Of a stretch of 33,557 nucleotides of DNA, positions 6,361 to 30,591 are shown in pieces. The position numbers and the translations under genes are program-made. How positions within the stretch are numbered: position 1 is the first letter of the stretch; each line of letters begins with the position of its first letter. The notes beneath the pieces were generated by a model. That model worked only from the letters and a program-made list of their open reading frames with translations, did not search any database and had not been told where the DNA came from. Source of the DNA: Candidatus Bathyarchaeota archaeon (lineage in GTDB: Archaea; Thermoproteota; Bathyarchaeia; Bathyarchaeales; Bathyarchaeaceae). The DNA is taken from contig JAUWZP010000013.1 of assembly GCA_030615265.1 (NCBI GenBank), positions 1 to 33,557 of the forward strand, in the 5' to 3' direction.

Positions 6361-7332
6361 TTACTTGAGTTTGGCTCCGCATTTTAAACAGTATTTAGAC
6401 TTTTCTGGGAGGTATTCTGCACCACACTTGTCACACTTAGCCATGTACGGCCCATAAGGAACCCTCGGATCCCCTCCCTTGGCGATAAACGAGCGGATCT
6501 TTTCCATATCAGGCTTTCTCTTTTCCTTGAACGCCCATAGTCCCTCAGTGGGCTCCATAGAGCCAAGGTTGAGAGCGAACCATGCCTTTCCATGTTCCCA
6601 GGTGAGGCGCCAAACCAGTTCTTTCCACCAGTTGTGTTGAACCTTATAATACCATAGGCTGGACGGAGACAGTTTTTTCATCTTATCGATGTACTCTCTC
6701 ACCTTATCGTCTAACTTTTCTTTGGGCACCACAGCGTTCACTACGCCGTACTTGAGAGCCTCTTCCGCGCTTATCTTTAAGCTTAGAAGAACCATCTCCG
6801 CCGATTTCTTTATGCTCATGTGTAAGGGAAGCCATTGAGACAGCCCACCAATAGAAGTCATGCCCACCCTGGGACCGGGAGAGATAAAAGATGCGTGATC
6901 CGCTGCAATTGCAAGGTCACAGCAAGCGACGAACTCCCAGCCACCGCCTGCTACTACTCCGTTTACTCGAGCAATAACCGGCTTTCCACAGTGCATTATC
7001 ATGTCGAAGACTCTGCCGTAGAATTCTCCCCACTCCCAGAACTTCCAAGGCTTTTTATTGTATATCCCAGCGTACTCGTGGACGCTTCCACCTGTGCAGA
7101 AAGCTCTGTCGCCTTCGCCGGTCATCACTATGATTTGAACGGAATCGTCTCCCATAGCCTTCTCGTAAGCGGTGCACAACTCTTTGAGGGTTCCCAAGAC
7201 ATATGAGTTCAACGCTTTAGGGTTGTTGATGGCAATTAAGGCAGTGTAATCGTACCAGTTAGGATCGTACTTGACGGTTCGCCAGTCTTTTGGATCCTCA
7301 GCTGGATACCAGTCGTATTCCGTTTTCGACAT
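6361..7332 (-). CDS. Enoyl-CoA hydratase/BamA-like ring hydrolase with C-terminal zinc ribbon
   Basis: Crotonase-superfamily protein of about 323 residues from ATG 7332 (MSKTEYDWY); an in-frame GTG lies 9 nt upstream at 7341, numbering 326 residues from there. The strand INNPKALNSY, the oxyanion-hole segment DRAFCTGGSVHEYA and the second loop GVVAGGGWEF are present. FCTGG and HEYA spacing recall 6-oxocyclohexene-1-carbonyl-CoA hydrolase (BamA/Oah) and BadI more than ordinary enoyl-CoA hydratase. The last 24 residues carry C303-x2-C306 and C318-x2-C321, a zinc ribbon not normal for crotonases. A TATA-like element at 7366-7376 gives almost no leader. Substrate is unproven; the neighbouring AOR-family enzyme would suit aromatic or cyclic acyl-CoA metabolism (inference). 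Confidence 0.85.
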   Translation of the reverse strand: MSKTEYDWYPAEDPKDWRTVKYDPNWYDYTALIAINNPKALNSYVLGTLKELCTAYEKAMGDDSVQIIVMTGEGDRAFCTGGSVHEYAGIYNKKPWKFWEWGEFYGRVFDMIMHCGKPVIARVNGVVAGGGWEFVACCDLAIAADHASFISPGPRVGMTSIGGLSQWLPLHMSIKKSAEMVLLSLKISAEEALKYGVVNAVVPKEKLDDKVREYIDKMKKLSPSSLWYYKVQHNWWKELVWRLTWEHGKAWFALNLGSMEPTEGLWAFKEKRKPDMEKIRSFIAKGGDPRVPYGPYMAKCDKCGAEYLPEKSKYCLKCGAKLK

Positions 7333-7522
7333 GTCTATCACGTCAGTGTGATTAATTCTGTAAGTATTTAATATTTACTTGGAGGCGGAGAATTTGCGGA
7401 GAAATCTATCGAACCGCGCGAAGCATTGATGAGTAACCATTGTAGCTTTTGATTGAGATATGCTTTTAAGATTAAACAGTAAAGAAGAAAATGTGACCAG
7501 AGGTTAATATGGAGAAGTTCTT

Positions 7523-10500
7523 GTGCCATCTGATAAGTCGAGAGTTGTTGTTCCGAGTCCCCGTCCGTCTGCTATGAGAGAGATTCAGCTTATCGACAGA
7601 GTTGAAGAGATGCGTGTTCTCAGAGATGTTGTCGACAGGGTGATTCATGGAGAAGGCGGTGTTGTTTTCCTGCACGGGGAGGCTGGAATCGGCAAGACAA
7701 GGTTGGCCAAAGAATTAAAGGCTTACGCACGTTCCCGTGGCATGCAAGTTCTATCTGGAAGATGCCCAGCTTTGTTCAAGATGGATGGCGTTCCTCCCTA
7801 TGTTCTCTGGAACGAGGTGATTAGAGATTATTTGGAAGTTTGCACTCCTGAGCAGTTGCATAGAGTGATTGGTTTCTATCCAGGCGAGGTTTCCAAGTTG
7901 GTTCCTGAGCTTACGCGGAAGCTTAGGGCGATCCCGAAGTCTCTGCCCATAAATCCTGAGCATGAACGTAACCGTCTTTTTGAGGCGGTTTCACAGTTTA
8001 TTACCAATATTTCTAGGGAAGCTCCATTGTTGGTTGTTCTTGATGATTTACAGTGGACTGATCAGTCTTCGCTTTTGCTTCTGCATTATTTGGCTCGCGG
8101 AGTCCACAAGGAGTCTCTGCTTCTCTTGGGTGCTTATCGTGATACTTACGTGGACGAGAAACATCCCTTGTCTCCTGTTTTAACGGAACTTAACAGGGAA
8201 CGTCTGCTTCAATCCATCCATTTGAAACGTCTGTCTTTCAATGATGTTTCAGAGATGATCAAGCGAATACTGGAGCAAGACGACGTATCAAGAGAATTCT
8301 GCAAACTGGTCTATGAAAAGACGAGGGGCAACCCGTTCTTTGCTGAAGAAGTGATTAACTCATTAAAGGAAGAAAACGTCATCTACCGTGAGAGAAGTAA
8401 ATGGAAGATCAAGGAAATTTCGAGAATTAAGTTTCCTAAGACCGTTAAGAGCGTCATAAAGAAACGGATAAGCCAATTAGATGATGAATCTCAACGAGCG
8501 TTAACTATGGCATCTTTTGTTGGCAAAGATTTCACTTTTGAGACTTTATGCGAAGTTACAGGCGTTGAAGAAGATAAAATGCTTGAAATCATGGAGAAAC
8601 TGCTCAAAACAGGATTGTTTAAGCACAGGGTCACACATGGGGAAGACGTGTGTTCCTTCGGCGATATCATGGTGAGAGATGTTGTACATGAAGAAGTTAA
8701 TCCCTTCAGACGTAAGAAGCTTCACGGTGTTGTGGGACGCGCATTAGAGAAAGTATACGCTGAAAAGATTGACGAGCATTACGGGGAACTTGCTTATCAT
8801 TTTCTAGAAAGCGGTGACAAAGGTAAGGCGCTTGATTACTTCTTGAAAGCCGCGGAAAAAGCAAAGAAGGTTTACGCTTATGATGAAGCGTGCTCCTATC
8901 TTCGGCACGTTCTTGAGCTTCTTAGAGAAGATGCTCTCGAACAGCGAGTTCGTATAACCGAGGGGCTTGGCGACCTCAAAGGGTGGATGGGTGAAAGTGA
9001 GGCTTGCATAGAATATTGGAATAAATCGCTAGCTTTGTGGAGTCGGATAGGAGATGAAAAAAACGTTGCAAGGCTTCATGTCAAAATGGCCAACAGATTT
9101 TGGTTTGTGGCTGCGGACCAGGAGGAAGCTTCTGAGCATCATCGCTTAGCTAAAGAAATGCTTGAGAAAGAGCGTGAGAGTGTGGAATTAGCCAGTTTGT
9201 ATGAAGATATTTCGCACATGCTTTGGCGAACTGGAGATCTTGCTGAAGCTTTGCCTTGGGCACATAAAGCCCTTGAACTGGCAGAGAGATTAGGCGCCCT
9301 CGAAGTTCTTGCACGCTGTTATAACGATCTAGGAGTGTTAAGTCAAAAGTCCGGAGAATCCGAAAAAGCGACAAAATACTATGAACAAGGACTGAAAATA
9401 GACCTTGAACACAAGTTCTTAGGAGATGCCCTCACATTGTACAACAACCTTTCCGAACACTACAGGATTATCGGAGAATTTCAAAAGAGTTTCGAAACCG
9501 CTGAAAAAGGAGTAGAATTGGCCCAGAAGATTGGTGCCCTAGGCGCCTTAGCCTGGATTGGCTCTGGATTGGCAATGTATTATGTGTTCATGGGAAAAAT
9601 CCAGAAAGCCATTTCCATGTTGGAAGACTTTTTAGCATTGGATAAGAGAATAAAGTTCACCGCTCATATCTCCTACGCGATGGGAGGTCTCGGAGACTGT
9701 TATTATTGGCTAGGAGAATGGGACAAAAGTCTCCACTATCTGATGGAAGCTCGCGATCTAGCAAAAAAGACGAGAGAATATCAATCTTTTGGAACTGCAA
9801 CCTTTTCGCTTGGAGAATTATTTATGGAAATGAAAGATTATGCAGAAGCTGAGAAATACTTCAACGAAAGCAACAGCATCTGTGAAGAAGTTGGAGAGCC
9901 CGATTTTCAGCATACGTGGGTATTCCCAGCTCTTTCAAAATTGTATTTGAAGAAAGGTGAGCTTGAAAATGCGGATGACATCATTGAAAAAGTCTACGAA
10001 TATGCAAGAAAAACAAGAAGCAGATTAAACCTCTCTTACGCTGAAATGTTGAAAGCGATGCTTTTCAGAGAGCAGAAAAACTGGGAACAATCCATACAAC
10101 ACTTCGAAAAAAGTCTTCAAGGATTCAAATCTCTAGGCGTGCAAAAATGGGGTGTGCAACGATTTGCTGAACTTCTATTCGAATATGGCTCGATGTATCT
10201 CGACAGGAATGAGGAAGGCGACAAAGAGAAAGCCTATTCGTTTCTAAGCCAAGCTTTGGAAGTATTCCAAAAAATTGGTGCAAAAAAGAAGATAGAAAGA
10301 GTAAATTCAAGGATGGCTCACGTAGAAATTAAGCAACAGATGATTTCAGAGCCCGAACTTGTGGCAGTTGAGGCTTCAAAAGTTGCCCTCCCTGGTCGTG
10401 TTACTACTGGATTTGACGATCTTGATGATCTGTTATTTGGTGGGATTCCTGAAAATTACGCGGTTATATTGACTTCACCTTCATGTGATGAAAGAGACCT

Positions 10501-11068
10501 GTTGATTAAGCGTTTTCTCGAAGCAGGCGCAAAAGAGGGGCAGATCACGTTTTACGTTACCACAATGGCAAGTAGAGTAAGGAACCTCGCAGAAGAATTC
10601 CAGTCAAACTTCTACCTTTTCATGTGCAATCCTCAGGCAGACATAATGATCAAAAGCCTGCCCAACGTGTCCAAACTGAAAGGCGTTGAAAACCTAACTG
10701 ACATAAGCATTGCTTTAGCCTCAGCTTTTCGTAAATTGGACGTTTCAGTCAAAGGTCCAAGAAGAATTTGCATTGAAATCGTATCAGACGTTTTACTGCA
10801 ACATCGTGCTGTGCAAACTAGGAGATGGCTAACCGCGCTTATTCCAGAATTGAGGGCAAAAGGCTTCACCACTTTAGCAGTGATAGATCCCCAGATGCAT
10901 TCTACAGAAGAGGTTCAAGCGATTGTAGGCCTGTTTGAAGGAGAGATCAACGTCTTCAAGAAAAGGACCGAAAAAGGCTTGGAAAAATTTCTGAAAATTG
11001 AAAAGATGACCAATCAAAGATATTCAGATAGCGAACTTCCTCTGAGAAAAAAGAAACTACAGAAATGA
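7523..11068 (+). CDS. AAA/STAND-like ATPase with TPR array and C-terminal degenerate KaiC-like domain
   Basis: GTG 7523 preceded by GGAGAAG; 1181 residues. Residues 20-330 form a MalT/AAA_16-type NTPase: Walker A GEAGIGKT (52-59), Walker B LLVVLDDLQWTD (169-180) and an adenylyl-cyclase-associated-like R.D motif after. About 330-430 looks like a winged-helix linker. About 430-930 is a run of tetratricopeptide repeats, with the usual G.Y..A pattern (for example GDLAEALPWAHKALELAERL). Residues 954-1181 are a KaiC/RadA-like domain in which the P-loop is replaced by TSPSCDERD (984-992). No HTH domain follows the TPRs. Such proteins usually switch conformation with a ligand or partner bound to the repeats. 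The C-terminal domain is closely similar to that of the gene at 29624-30591. Likely a cytoplasmic signalling or regulatory protein; its target is unknown. Confidence 0.85.
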   Translation: MPSDKSRVVVPSPRPSAMREIQLIDRVEEMRVLRDVVDRVIHGEGGVVFLHGEAGIGKTRLAKELKAYARSRGMQVLSGRCPALFKMDGVPPYVLWNEVIRDYLEVCTPEQLHRVIGFYPGEVSKLVPELTRKLRAIPKSLPINPEHERNRLFEAVSQFITNISREAPLLVVLDDLQWTDQSSLLLLHYLARGVHKESLLLLGAYRDTYVDEKHPLSPVLTELNRERLLQSIHLKRLSFNDVSEMIKRILEQDDVSREFCKLVYEKTRGNPFFAEEVINSLKEENVIYRERSKWKIKEISRIKFPKTVKSVIKKRISQLDDESQRALTMASFVGKDFTFETLCEVTGVEEDKMLEIMEKLLKTGLFKHRVTHGEDVCSFGDIMVRDVVHEEVNPFRRKKLHGVVGRALEKVYAEKIDEHYGELAYHFLESGDKGKALDYFLKAAEKAKKVYAYDEACSYLRHVLELLREDALEQRVRITEGLGDLKGWMGESEACIEYWNKSLALWSRIGDEKNVARLHVKMANRFWFVAADQEEASEHHRLAKEMLEKERESVELASLYEDISHMLWRTGDLAEALPWAHKALELAERLGALEVLARCYNDLGVLSQKSGESEKATKYYEQGLKIDLEHKFLGDALTLYNNLSEHYRIIGEFQKSFETAEKGVELAQKIGALGALAWIGSGLAMYYVFMGKIQKAISMLEDFLALDKRIKFTAHISYAMGGLGDCYYWLGEWDKSLHYLMEARDLAKKTREYQSFGTATFSLGELFMEMKDYAEAEKYFNESNSICEEVGEPDFQHTWVFPALSKLYLKKGELENADDIIEKVYEYARKTRSRLNLSYAEMLKAMLFREQKNWEQSIQHFEKSLQGFKSLGVQKWGVQRFAELLFEYGSMYLDRNEEGDKEKAYSFLSQALEVFQKIGAKKKIERVNSRMAHVEIKQQMISEPELVAVEASKVALPGRVTTGFDDLDDLLFGGIPENYAVILTSPSCDERDLLIKRFLEAGAKEGQITFYVTTMASRVRNLAEEFQSNFYLFMCNPQADIMIKSLPNVSKLKGVENLTDISIALASAFRKLDVSVKGPRRICIEIVSDVLLQHRAVQTRRWLTALIPELRAKGFTTLAVIDPQMHSTEEVQAIVGLFEGEINVFKKRTEKGLEKFLKIEKMTNQRYSDSELPLRKKKLQK

Positions 11069-27223: not shown

Positions 27224-28444
27224 TCAGAAAGGGAGTTTGTTTACTTTTTGCGGTGGTTTAGCCAGTGATACGTGTTCGCTCATCCTTATTTCACCGGTAT
27301 ACTGTACTTCACCGCTTATGTGACAGTGGGAGTCGATGATAATGTTTTCACCGTAAACGTTCTCTGCGCGCGTTCCCCTTCTGAGTAGAATCTTCTTTCC
27401 GTAAATGTCTCCTGCATGTGCATCTCTACCAATGATAACTTGGTCTGCCTTTATAGGTCCCTGGACTTTGCCTCTTCTTCCTATCTCAACAAAATGTGCC
27501 GTTACACCTTCAACAGTAATTATTGCACCGCCAACCTCTACACGCCCTTCTGCCGTGGCTTTTCTTGACCGTAATACTCCGCCCACCTCAATGTTTCTTG
27601 CTGAAACCTCCTCGTCTACTTCCACTTTGCCTCCAACCTCAAGGGTTTCAGAAAGCCGTAGCGACTTGCCTACTTCTACTTTGCCTCCCACTTCTATTTC
27701 GTTGCCTTCGGCGGAACCAGTTATCTCTACTTTGCCTCCCACGTCGATGTCTTTGAACTCTAAATCCCCTTCAACTTTAAATGAGCCACCAACCTCTATA
27801 CTACCACCCTTATTTTTGTTGGAGAGTCGAACAACTCCGCCCACATCTATCTGTTCAAATTCTAGTGAGCCTTTTGACTCGAAGCTTCCTCCCACTTCTA
27901 CTTCGCGAATTTTCCCGCCTCCAACTTTAGCCGCGCCTCCTACCTCCAAATTTGCGATGTCAACTTTAGACTCGATTGAGACACTTCCACCTACGTCTAT
28001 TTTTTCCGCCTCTACTTCTCCTTTGGCTTTGAAGCTTCCACATACGTCAATGTCTTCAACTCTTACATTACCGTCTACCTTTAGGCCTCCACAAACATCA
28101 ACCTTGTGAGCCGCTAAGTCCTTGGTCACATAAAGAACAGAATCTACACCCACACGTCTTGCAGTCATCTTCCCGTAAACTTCCAGGCGGCCATCTTCCA
28201 CTTCAACATCTTTTTCTATTATCAGGTCCCCATGAATCGTTACGTTATCTTCGGCTTCCATGCTTTCTGCTGAGAGACTGCACTCAAAGGTGTTGTCTCC
28301 TTCGCAGTAAACTGTGCCAGAAACCTTCACTGCGGGCGGTGTCCCTGTTCCCTCGATGACTGCGCGTCTACCCACCACCAAATCTTCTTCAACGAAATCT
28401 AATGTTGTCTTACTTCTTGAGGGAACAGAAATTTTCCGACTCAT
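27224..28444 (-). CDS. Bactofilin-like polymer-forming protein with tandem beta-helix repeats
   Basis: 406 residues. A run of at least twelve repeats of about 17 residues occupies residues 115-340, each carrying an (I/V/L)(D/E)VGG core, for example IDVGGKVEITGS and IEVGGSFKVEGDLEFKD. This is the pattern of a right-handed beta-helix, as in bactofilins (DUF583) that self-assemble into filaments. The N-terminus (about 1-70) and C-terminus (about 350-406) are less regular. No signal peptide or membrane segment is evident, so it is probably cytoplasmic. Paralogous short repeats also exist at DNA level in this gene. Confidence 0.85.
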   Translation of the reverse strand: MSRKISVPSRSKTTLDFVEEDLVVGRRAVIEGTGTPPAVKVSGTVYCEGDNTFECSLSAESMEAEDNVTIHGDLIIEKDVEVEDGRLEVYGKMTARRVGVDSVLYVTKDLAAHKVDVCGGLKVDGNVRVEDIDVCGSFKAKGEVEAEKIDVGGSVSIESKVDIANLEVGGAAKVGGGKIREVEVGGSFESKGSLEFEQIDVGGVVRLSNKNKGGSIEVGGSFKVEGDLEFKDIDVGGKVEITGSAEGNEIEVGGKVEVGKSLRLSETLEVGGKVEVDEEVSARNIEVGGVLRSRKATAEGRVEVGGAIITVEGVTAHFVEIGRRGKVQGPIKADQVIIGRDAHAGDIYGKKILLRRGTRAENVYGENIIIDSHCHISGEVQYTGEIRMSEHVSLAKPPQKVNKLPF

Positions 28445-28754: not shown

Positions 28755-29549
28755 TTGCCAAGAAAGATCGCCACTGGAATTAACGGCTTAGATCAGCTGG
28801 TTGGAGGAGGTTTTCCCGAAGGAAGAGTCATTCTTGTTATCGGGGGACCAGGCACCGGAAAGACCATTATGTGCGGCCAATTCTTGTACAAAGGAATCTA
28901 TGAACATGAAGAAAGTGGAGTTTTTGTCAGCCTAGACGAAAGTAAGGATCACTTCTACTCTGAAATGCAAGGATTTGGGTGGGATTTTCGGAAAGCAGAG
29001 GAGGAGGGGAAATTTGCCTTCATAGATGCCACGCGAATGTCGCGAGTAGCTATGCTGAGAGAGAAGCTGGACAAAGAAGGCCGTAGCTTACACGCGCGTT
29101 TGAGAGGCAAGCAACTGCCCATTGATGAACTAATCAAGGACTTGCAAGTAAAAATTCATCACACTAAGATAGATCGGCATGCGCCCGGCGCGCGAGCGAA
29201 AAGGGTTGTGGTGGACACTTTAGCATCACTTATCTACCGAATTCCAGATCCTGTAGAACGAAGGACTGCTGTTGTGGATTTGATTGAATCACTGGCGGAT
29301 TTAGGAGTTACCAGTCTTGTGACCACTGAACTAGAGTACTTGGGTCTTGAACGAAATGCCGTGGAAGAAGAATTCCTGGTTCACGGAGTTATCATGATGC
29401 AGACTCTGTTTTCAGGAGGAACTACAACGAGAGCGATACAAGTTGAAAAGATGAGAGAAGCCAAGGTCAACCCGAATCTTGTGCCATACTCGATAGATCA
29501 GAATGGCATTCAGGTCTTTCCCAACATGCCACTATTTGGGGAAAAATAG
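28755..29549 (+). CDS. KaiC/RadA-like ATPase, intact P-loop
   Basis: 264 residues from TTG 28755 with GGTGA upstream. Walker A GGPGTGKT (30-37) and Walker B-like VVVDTLASLI are present. The single-domain KaiC/Rad55 fold is common in archaea and is linked to signalling and, for RadA paralogues, recombination. It has SLDESKDHF after helix 1, a family pattern. It converges on the wHTH/pseudo-KaiC gene, with which it shares only fold, not close sequence. Confidence 0.88.
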   Translation: MPRKIATGINGLDQLVGGGFPEGRVILVIGGPGTGKTIMCGQFLYKGIYEHEESGVFVSLDESKDHFYSEMQGFGWDFRKAEEEGKFAFIDATRMSRVAMLREKLDKEGRSLHARLRGKQLPIDELIKDLQVKIHHTKIDRHAPGARAKRVVVDTLASLIYRIPDPVERRTAVVDLIESLADLGVTSLVTTELEYLGLERNAVEEEFLVHGVIMMQTLFSGGTTTRAIQVEKMREAKVNPNLVPYSIDQNGIQVFPNMPLFGEK

Positions 29550-29623: not shown

Positions 29624-30591
29624 TCACTTTTTTAGAGGCAATTTGGTGCCCAGATATCTTTGATTATGCATCTTCCTGATCTTCAGGAATTTTTCTAAAC
29701 CTCTTTCGGTTTCTTTCTCGTAAATATTGATCTCTCCTTCGAACAGCCCTAGAATAGCATGAACCTCTTGTGGAGAATGCATCTGAGGATTCATCACCGC
29801 CAGAGTGGTGAAGCCTCTTGATCTCAGGTCTGGAAGAAGTCCGGTTAACCATCTGCGGGTTGAAACAGCTTGATGCTGCAGTAGTACGTCTGAGACTGTT
29901 TCGATGCAAGCCCTTCTTGGGCCACTTTTTGACGTGTCTAATCTGCGAAAAGCTGAGTTCAAAGCGATGCTGATGTCAGTGATGTTTTCTACACCTTTCA
30001 ATTTGAATACGTTGGGTAAGCTTTTTATCATTGCATCTGCTCGCGGGTTGCAGATGAAAAGGTAAAAGTTTGACTGGAATTCTTCTGCTAAAGCTCTTAC
30101 CCCACTTGCCTCTATGGTAACGTAAAACGTAGTTTGACCTTTCTTCGCCCCTGTTTCCAGAAATCTCTTAATCATCAAGTCTCTTTCATCGCATGAAGGT
30201 GAAGTTAATATAACCGAGTAGTTTTCAGGTATTCCCCCAAACAGCAAGCTATCAAGCTCTTTGTCTCCTGTAGTGACACGGTTCGGAAGAACAACCTCTG
30301 GAATCTTAACCCTTACAGGCTCCTCCAACGCAGCGAAGAACCGTTGCATCTGCTTGAAGGTCTTCAAGTATTCTAGCCCCCACTTGGTTGCCCTAAATTT
30401 TCGCGAATCACCAGCTGTTACTTCTCTTGCGAACCCGTGTGAAACCAGAAATTTCAAGATCTTCTTTGCTCTGTCTACTGGCAAGTTGCTCCATAAGAAA
30501 TTCTGGTTAGAGAACATGGACCCTTCATTGCAATAACTTCTATTATATCGGCGTAAATGTCGTATTTTGTCCTTCTCCGCTCACTTGACAA
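29624..30591 (-). pseudogene. Winged-helix protein with degenerate KaiC-like domain, 1-nt frameshift
   Basis: The unbroken open frame starts at ATG 30517 (297 aa) but begins inside the DNA-binding domain. In the neighbouring frame, TTG 30591 with GGAGAG about 9 nt upstream gives MSSERRTKYDIYADIIEVIAM and on to GPCSLTRISYGA, the usual front half of an archaeal HTH_45-type winged helix. The second half, NLPVDRAKKILKFL, continues in the other frame from 30487. Restoring one A at about 30487 joins them into a 322-aa protein. Residues from about 95 onwards are a KaiC-like domain, about four-fifths identical by eye to the tail of the AAA-TPR protein at 7523-11068, with TSPSCDERD in place of a P-loop. 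Either a recent frameshift or a sequencing slip in an A run; a start at ATG 30517 would leave half a DNA-binding domain. Likely a transcription regulator if intact. Confidence 0.7.

Follow-up and report, generated by a model that had tools for sequence, protein, structure and literature searches.

In KaiC rings, ATP sits between the subunits. Makarova, Galperin and Koonin are said to have proposed KaiC as an archaeal signalling hub (2017, mBio 8:e01959-17). Inactivated KaiC-like ATPase domains, termed iKaiC, occur in archaeal response regulators and, according to PMC5847659, are found together with REC and HalOD1 domains, e.g., in haloarchaea. In Haloferax volcanii, motility and cell shape are regulated by CirA, a KaiC-like protein (PMC13286277). 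Here we analysed a window, i.e., the whole stretch of 33,557 nucleotides, that encodes two copies of a KaiC-like domain without a P-loop, hereafter pseudo-KaiC (Table 1). Similar to iKaiC as presented in PMC5847659, pseudo-KaiC is a KaiC-superfamily domain that has lost its ATPase motifs and is fused to signalling domains. Compared with that account, however, its partners are different, namely an Sso10a-like winged helix, STAND-TPR, CARDB, ATP-cone, FIST, CBM96 or propeller receptors and a cyclase. The matches that Pfam scans listed for about 25 pseudo-KaiC members include neither REC nor HalOD1. It further differs in its signature loop SCDE, a conserved convergent active KaiC, a link to bactofilin and its confinement to Bathyarchaeia among the cellular genomes searched. 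Pseudo-KaiC probably represents a lineage-specific branch of the iKaiC kind, inactivated archaeal KaiC domains as such being already known. The locus also recalls CirA, a regulatory archaeal KaiC tied to cell shape, in that its KaiC gene adjoins a bactofilin-like gene; however, the available part of PMC13286277 mentions no pseudo-KaiC partner, and the link to cell shape here is one of gene order alone.

Table 1 Features of the window related to pseudo-KaiC (positions in the whole stretch)
Feature	Position	Strand	Evidence
STAND-TPR-pseudo-KaiC protein, 1181 aa	7523-11068	+	AAA_16 5.7e-27, TPR_12 7.6e-45, KaiC 6.9e-12 (Pfam)
C-terminal pseudo-KaiC domain, residues 954-1181 of the 1181-aa ORF	10382-11065	+	Pfam KaiC 6.9e-12, AlphaFold2
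Pseudo-P-loop TSPSCDERD, first copy; Gly replaced by S/C/E, Thr by Asp	10472-10498	+	alignment of 85 relatives
Bactofilin-like polymer-forming protein gene, divergent from KaiC	27224-28444	-	Bactofilin 3.2e-10 (Pfam)
Predicted active KaiC-family ATPase (GGPGTGKT, KMR finger)	28755-29549	+	Pfam KaiC 1.3e-58
Winged-helix pseudo-KaiC gene, ORF open from ATG	29624-30517	-	Pfam KaiC 3.6e-12
Pseudo-P-loop TSPSCDERD, second copy	30179-30205	-	sequence, alignment of 85 relatives

The first copy forms the C-terminal part of a protein that begins with an AAA_16/STAND ATPase domain, whose own P-loop (GEAGIGKT) is intact, followed by a TPR solenoid. A role of this protein in anti-phage STAND defence was rejected, as only a generic TPR model among the defence-system models matched it. 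At 6361-7341 lies an enoyl-CoA hydratase-like protein with a zinc-ribbon-like tail (CxxC...CxxC). The second copy belongs to a winged-helix protein, and the two domains share 76.7% identity over 223 aa (blastp, E 3e-133), close to the four-fifths estimated in the preliminary description, which had also correctly read TSPSCDERD in place of Walker A in both. It had placed the second gene at 29624-30591, a span in which the frame proved to be broken. The winged-helix start (SSERRRTKYDIYADIIEVIAMKGPCSLTRISYGA, from about 30597/30591) lies in another frame than the sequence from NLPVDRAKK onwards, owing to a one-base frameshift near 30478-30484. Judging from the sequence, this shift may have been introduced by the assembly or may be a true mutation. 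The same gene is uninterrupted in relatives (e.g., L031 and L033), and the intact homologue L031 matches HTH_45 (Pfam, 6e-13).

An AlphaFold2 model of 10364-11062 (pLDDT 93, pTM 0.90) showed that pseudo-KaiC, as predicted, has a KaiC/RecA fold, in line with the relationship to KaiC assumed previously. The PDB matches listed for the model are KaiC-family or RecA-like proteins. The closest solved folds are two single-domain archaeal KaiC/RadA-like ATPases, PH0284 (2dr3) and SSO2452 (2w0m), at TM 0.69-0.76, with PH0284 as the best match (TM 0.76). A sequence profile match to 2w0m extends over the full length of the domain, and the Pfam KaiC profile PF06745 matches nearly all members. In contrast to PH0284 and SSO2452, pseudo-KaiC has a destroyed P-loop and is fused to other modules. 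For a winged helix-CARDB-pseudo-KaiC protein, the model reached a pTM of 0.57, at which the interdomain arrangement is unreliable. Over the same fold, the DUF7504 profile (PF24336) gives overlapping matches of weak to moderate strength: members outside the window score 17-36 bits against a cut-off of 27, which some of them exceed (L046 with 34.6 and L160 with 35.6). The window copies, however, score at or just below this cut-off (25.4 bits as protein and 29.4 in the genome search). Among 14 control genomes, DUF7504 was found in Haloferax volcanii only. The MEDS sensory domain (PF14417) was absent among the best 25 of 28 matches of the first window copy and gave no match at E 0.1 for the second.

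Residues were counted in an alignment of 85 full-length domains, referred to the GTSGTGKT of KaiC. None of the 85 has an intact Walker A motif (GxxxxGK[ST]) at the P-loop site, so the case considered in the preliminary description, that homologues mostly carry an intact GKT P-loop, does not hold; a regex match in L121 falls in a linker outside the site. The last Gly of the P-loop is replaced by Glu in all 85 relatives, and Asp or Glu precedes it in 83. The first Gly is changed to Ser (77/85), the second to Cys (74/85) and the Thr to Asp (64/85). As a result of these replacements, the loop is acidic where phosphates bind. The only truly invariant loop residue is therefore the Glu after CD, and not the Cys as claimed earlier; since 11 relatives have N, S, A, F, W or T in place of the latter, redox sensing by this Cys is unsupported. 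That the Lys and glycines are gone is right in so far as every P-loop is disrupted, but the Walker-Lys position is still basic in 77 domains (Arg in 53, Lys in 24). The Walker B position holds Glu or Asp in 66/85, and the finger residue aligned to the trans finger (KMR) of KaiC is Lys or Arg in 82/83; the Arg that follows two positions later in KaiC is lost. The domain is under purifying selection (dN/dS 0.04-0.39 for the 25 closest pairs), with the pseudo-P-loop more tightly constrained than the remaining domain (pN/pS 0.15 versus 0.24). This selection, together with the 95 distinct copies, ruled out an assembly oddity or a decaying domain. From the sequence, we infer that pseudo-KaiC no longer binds nucleotide. 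As previously recognized, a strongly conserved KaiC-like domain devoid of a P-loop is common to unlike proteins, which points to a probable signalling role not based on ATP hydrolysis of its own.

Pseudo-KaiC occurs in at least ten architectures. The cyclase fusions aside, every complete member examined carries it at the C-terminus. Its N-terminal partners are STAND-TPR (about 1180 aa), an Sso10a-like winged helix (335-380 aa), a winged helix plus a CARDB-like beta sandwich (about 450 aa), TPR plus CARDB (about 1300-1380 aa), a CARDB-like domain alone, a 500-aa region with an ATP-cone match (about 720 aa), a second winged-helix type and a FIST_C-like region. "CARDB-like" is a label chosen here for a beta sandwich with only weak Pfam matches to DUF11 or BatD. 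Among the more distant Bathyarchaeia, three proteins (L159, L168 and L173) carry secreted CBM96 and Ig-like domains and two (L160 and L169) a beta-propeller, each followed by one transmembrane helix, the helices being called by hydropathy alone. These five are predicted to be single-span membrane receptors with the CBM96 or beta-propeller part outside the cell and pseudo-KaiC in the cytosol. By hydropathy, two further proteins with pseudo-KaiC (L170 and L171) span the membrane several times. In two other proteins, CARDB and pseudo-KaiC precede a class III nucleotidyl cyclase (L161 4989-7094, Guanylate_cyc 3.9e-16; L172 1594-3477). Such attachment to varied sensors and effectors is characteristic of signalling modules. 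Consequently, "two arms of one regulatory system", as the preliminary description put it, rightly saw the module as common to both window proteins, but understates its reach. Two single cases are also recorded: a helical N-terminal segment, ferritin-like by eye, fused to pseudo-KaiC (L174 1449-2357), and a 1556-aa chain with two tandem pseudo-KaiC domains (L162 7895-12562, genome G333).

Bathyarchaeia are an abundant, uncultured class of archaea. Among the cellular genomes searched, pseudo-KaiC is restricted to this class. It was found in 47 of 257 bathyarchaeial genomes, in up to nine copies each, and a phylum-wide sample of 398 genomes yielded 15 carriers, all of the same class. All 76 loci with named relatives belong to Bathyarchaeota records, one of which is titled miscellaneous Crenarchaeota group-6. 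The source genome, a 1.86-Mb draft, has exactly two copies. A quick tree was built from 85 domains, with several branches left unsupported. In it, the winged-helix window copy groups with winged-helix orthologues of other genomes, whereas the STAND window copy is nearest to STAND-type copies. As the tree places each window copy by architecture with copies of other genomes, and the domain is spread over many genomes, a recent, local duplication, let alone a single one confined to this genome, is excluded. The well-supported branches also force several domain swaps between architectures. No match was found in plasmids, so a plasmid origin was rejected. The two IMG/VR contigs that match (L177 and L178, one of STAND-TPR type and one with a broken copy) are probably cellular DNA, which likewise speaks against a viral origin.

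The best clue to the mechanism comes from a gene overlooked by the preliminary description. The predicted active KaiC, the only strong KaiC in the source genome, lies tail-to-tail with the winged-helix pseudo-KaiC gene at a gap of 75 bp. Orthologous KaiC genes in the class (n=34) have a pseudo-KaiC neighbour in 29 cases, 26 convergent (25 of them within 120 bp) and 3 in tandem, leaving 5 with none; among less similar KaiC genes, 0 of 8 adjoin pseudo-KaiC. Pseudo-KaiC is carried by 27 of the 29 genomes that have the orthologous KaiC (Fisher p 1e-21, shared ancestry ignored). Winged-helix pseudo-KaiC genes lie inside the KaiC cluster in 16 of 17 cases, whereas STAND-type genes are usually away from KaiC. 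In twenty genomes, pseudo-KaiC occurs without the strict orthologue of KaiC; many of the twenty are either incomplete or both more distant and equipped with other KaiCs. Two carriers, G009 and G015, gave no KaiC match at E 1e-30. The bactofilin-like gene adjoins KaiC in 18 loci (e.g., L031 and L033-L035), usually divergent and on the side away from pseudo-KaiC. It closely precedes a winged-helix pseudo-KaiC gene of the same orientation in L060 and L128, which indicates that the bactofilin link survives rearrangement. At L071 6938-9602 (G011), the KaiC orthologue is followed by a 605-aa TPR-like protein that resembles TPR-CARDB by eye, in which the pseudo-KaiC domain was not detected. In the literature searched on KaiC with Bathyarchaeota or with bactofilin, no paper describes the pseudo-KaiC family by title and abstract, and none proved to deal specifically with KaiC signalling in this class.

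These findings enable us to propose a putative model, towards which we lean with modest confidence. Pseudo-KaiC would be a nucleotide-dead KaiC protomer that Bathyarchaeia employ as a standard plug, both for signalling and for assembly, by which sensors and effectors connect with an active ring of KaiC. We infer that the two assemble physically, with pseudo-KaiC docking into or onto the ring. The acidic pseudo-P-loop, with its invariant Glu and nearly invariant Asp, would occupy the place of the nucleotide phosphates and face the basic finger of the adjoining subunit, thus offering a permanent phosphate-like face to its neighbour. Conversely, the retained basic finger of pseudo-KaiC (K/R of the KMR motif) would extend to the ATP bound by a neighbouring active KaiC. 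The client proteins could thereby read or set the state of KaiC. The ATP state of a common KaiC hub would be linked, on the input side, to membrane receptors and to STAND-TPR, ATP-cone or FIST sensors and, on the output side, to winged-helix DNA-binding proteins or the cyclase. For the window, this would make the KaiC at 28755 the hub and the STAND-TPR and winged-helix proteins two of its clients.

The same residues would fit equally well an assembly of pseudo-KaiC with pseudo-KaiC only, in which each acidic loop pairs with the next basic finger. The resulting ring or dimer would need no ATP and would bring sensors and effectors together, the adjacent KaiC being separate or a member of the regulon. 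Acid loop and basic finger are indeed conserved in one and the same domain, two pseudo-KaiC domains stand in tandem in the chain of G333, and G009 and G015 carry the domain without a detectable KaiC orthologue, which also argues that some clients act without one. Such self-assembly, however, leaves the adjacency to KaiC in 29 of 34 cases unexplained, and we consider it possible but rather doubtful. Alternatively, the remodelled pocket may bind a non-nucleotide ligand, or the Cys may act as a redox switch. The tighter constraint on the pocket loop and the presence of Cys in most relatives would agree with this, but the Cys is dispensable, and a second sensor in all fusions would be less economical because CBM96, beta-propeller, FIST and ATP-cone already look like sensors. 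We thus regard a ligand or redox sensor as unlikely. Least credible is a cryptic, degenerate ATPase that binds nucleotide weakly via the retained Arg/Lys and the partly kept Walker B acid. Frequent as these two residues are, the P-loop glycines and the Ser/Thr have given way to other residues in almost every member and an acid stands at the phosphate site in all, which makes such a cryptic ATPase very improbable.

In summary, pseudo-KaiC is attached to many proteins, often beside a working KaiC, which suggests a little-known, KaiC-centred signalling network in archaea. Building on the plug model, we tentatively put forward, as a conjecture that may well prove wrong, a mode of signalling in Bathyarchaeia with one hub and many clients but without phosphotransfer. 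One active KaiC ring would sense energy or timing, and up to nine proteins would plug in via pseudo-KaiC, thus joining extracellular receptors, cytosolic sensors, DNA-binding proteins, a cyclase and a bactofilin scaffold. For the proposed archaeal KaiC hub, pseudo-KaiC would provide a concrete and testable connector through which signals may enter and leave.
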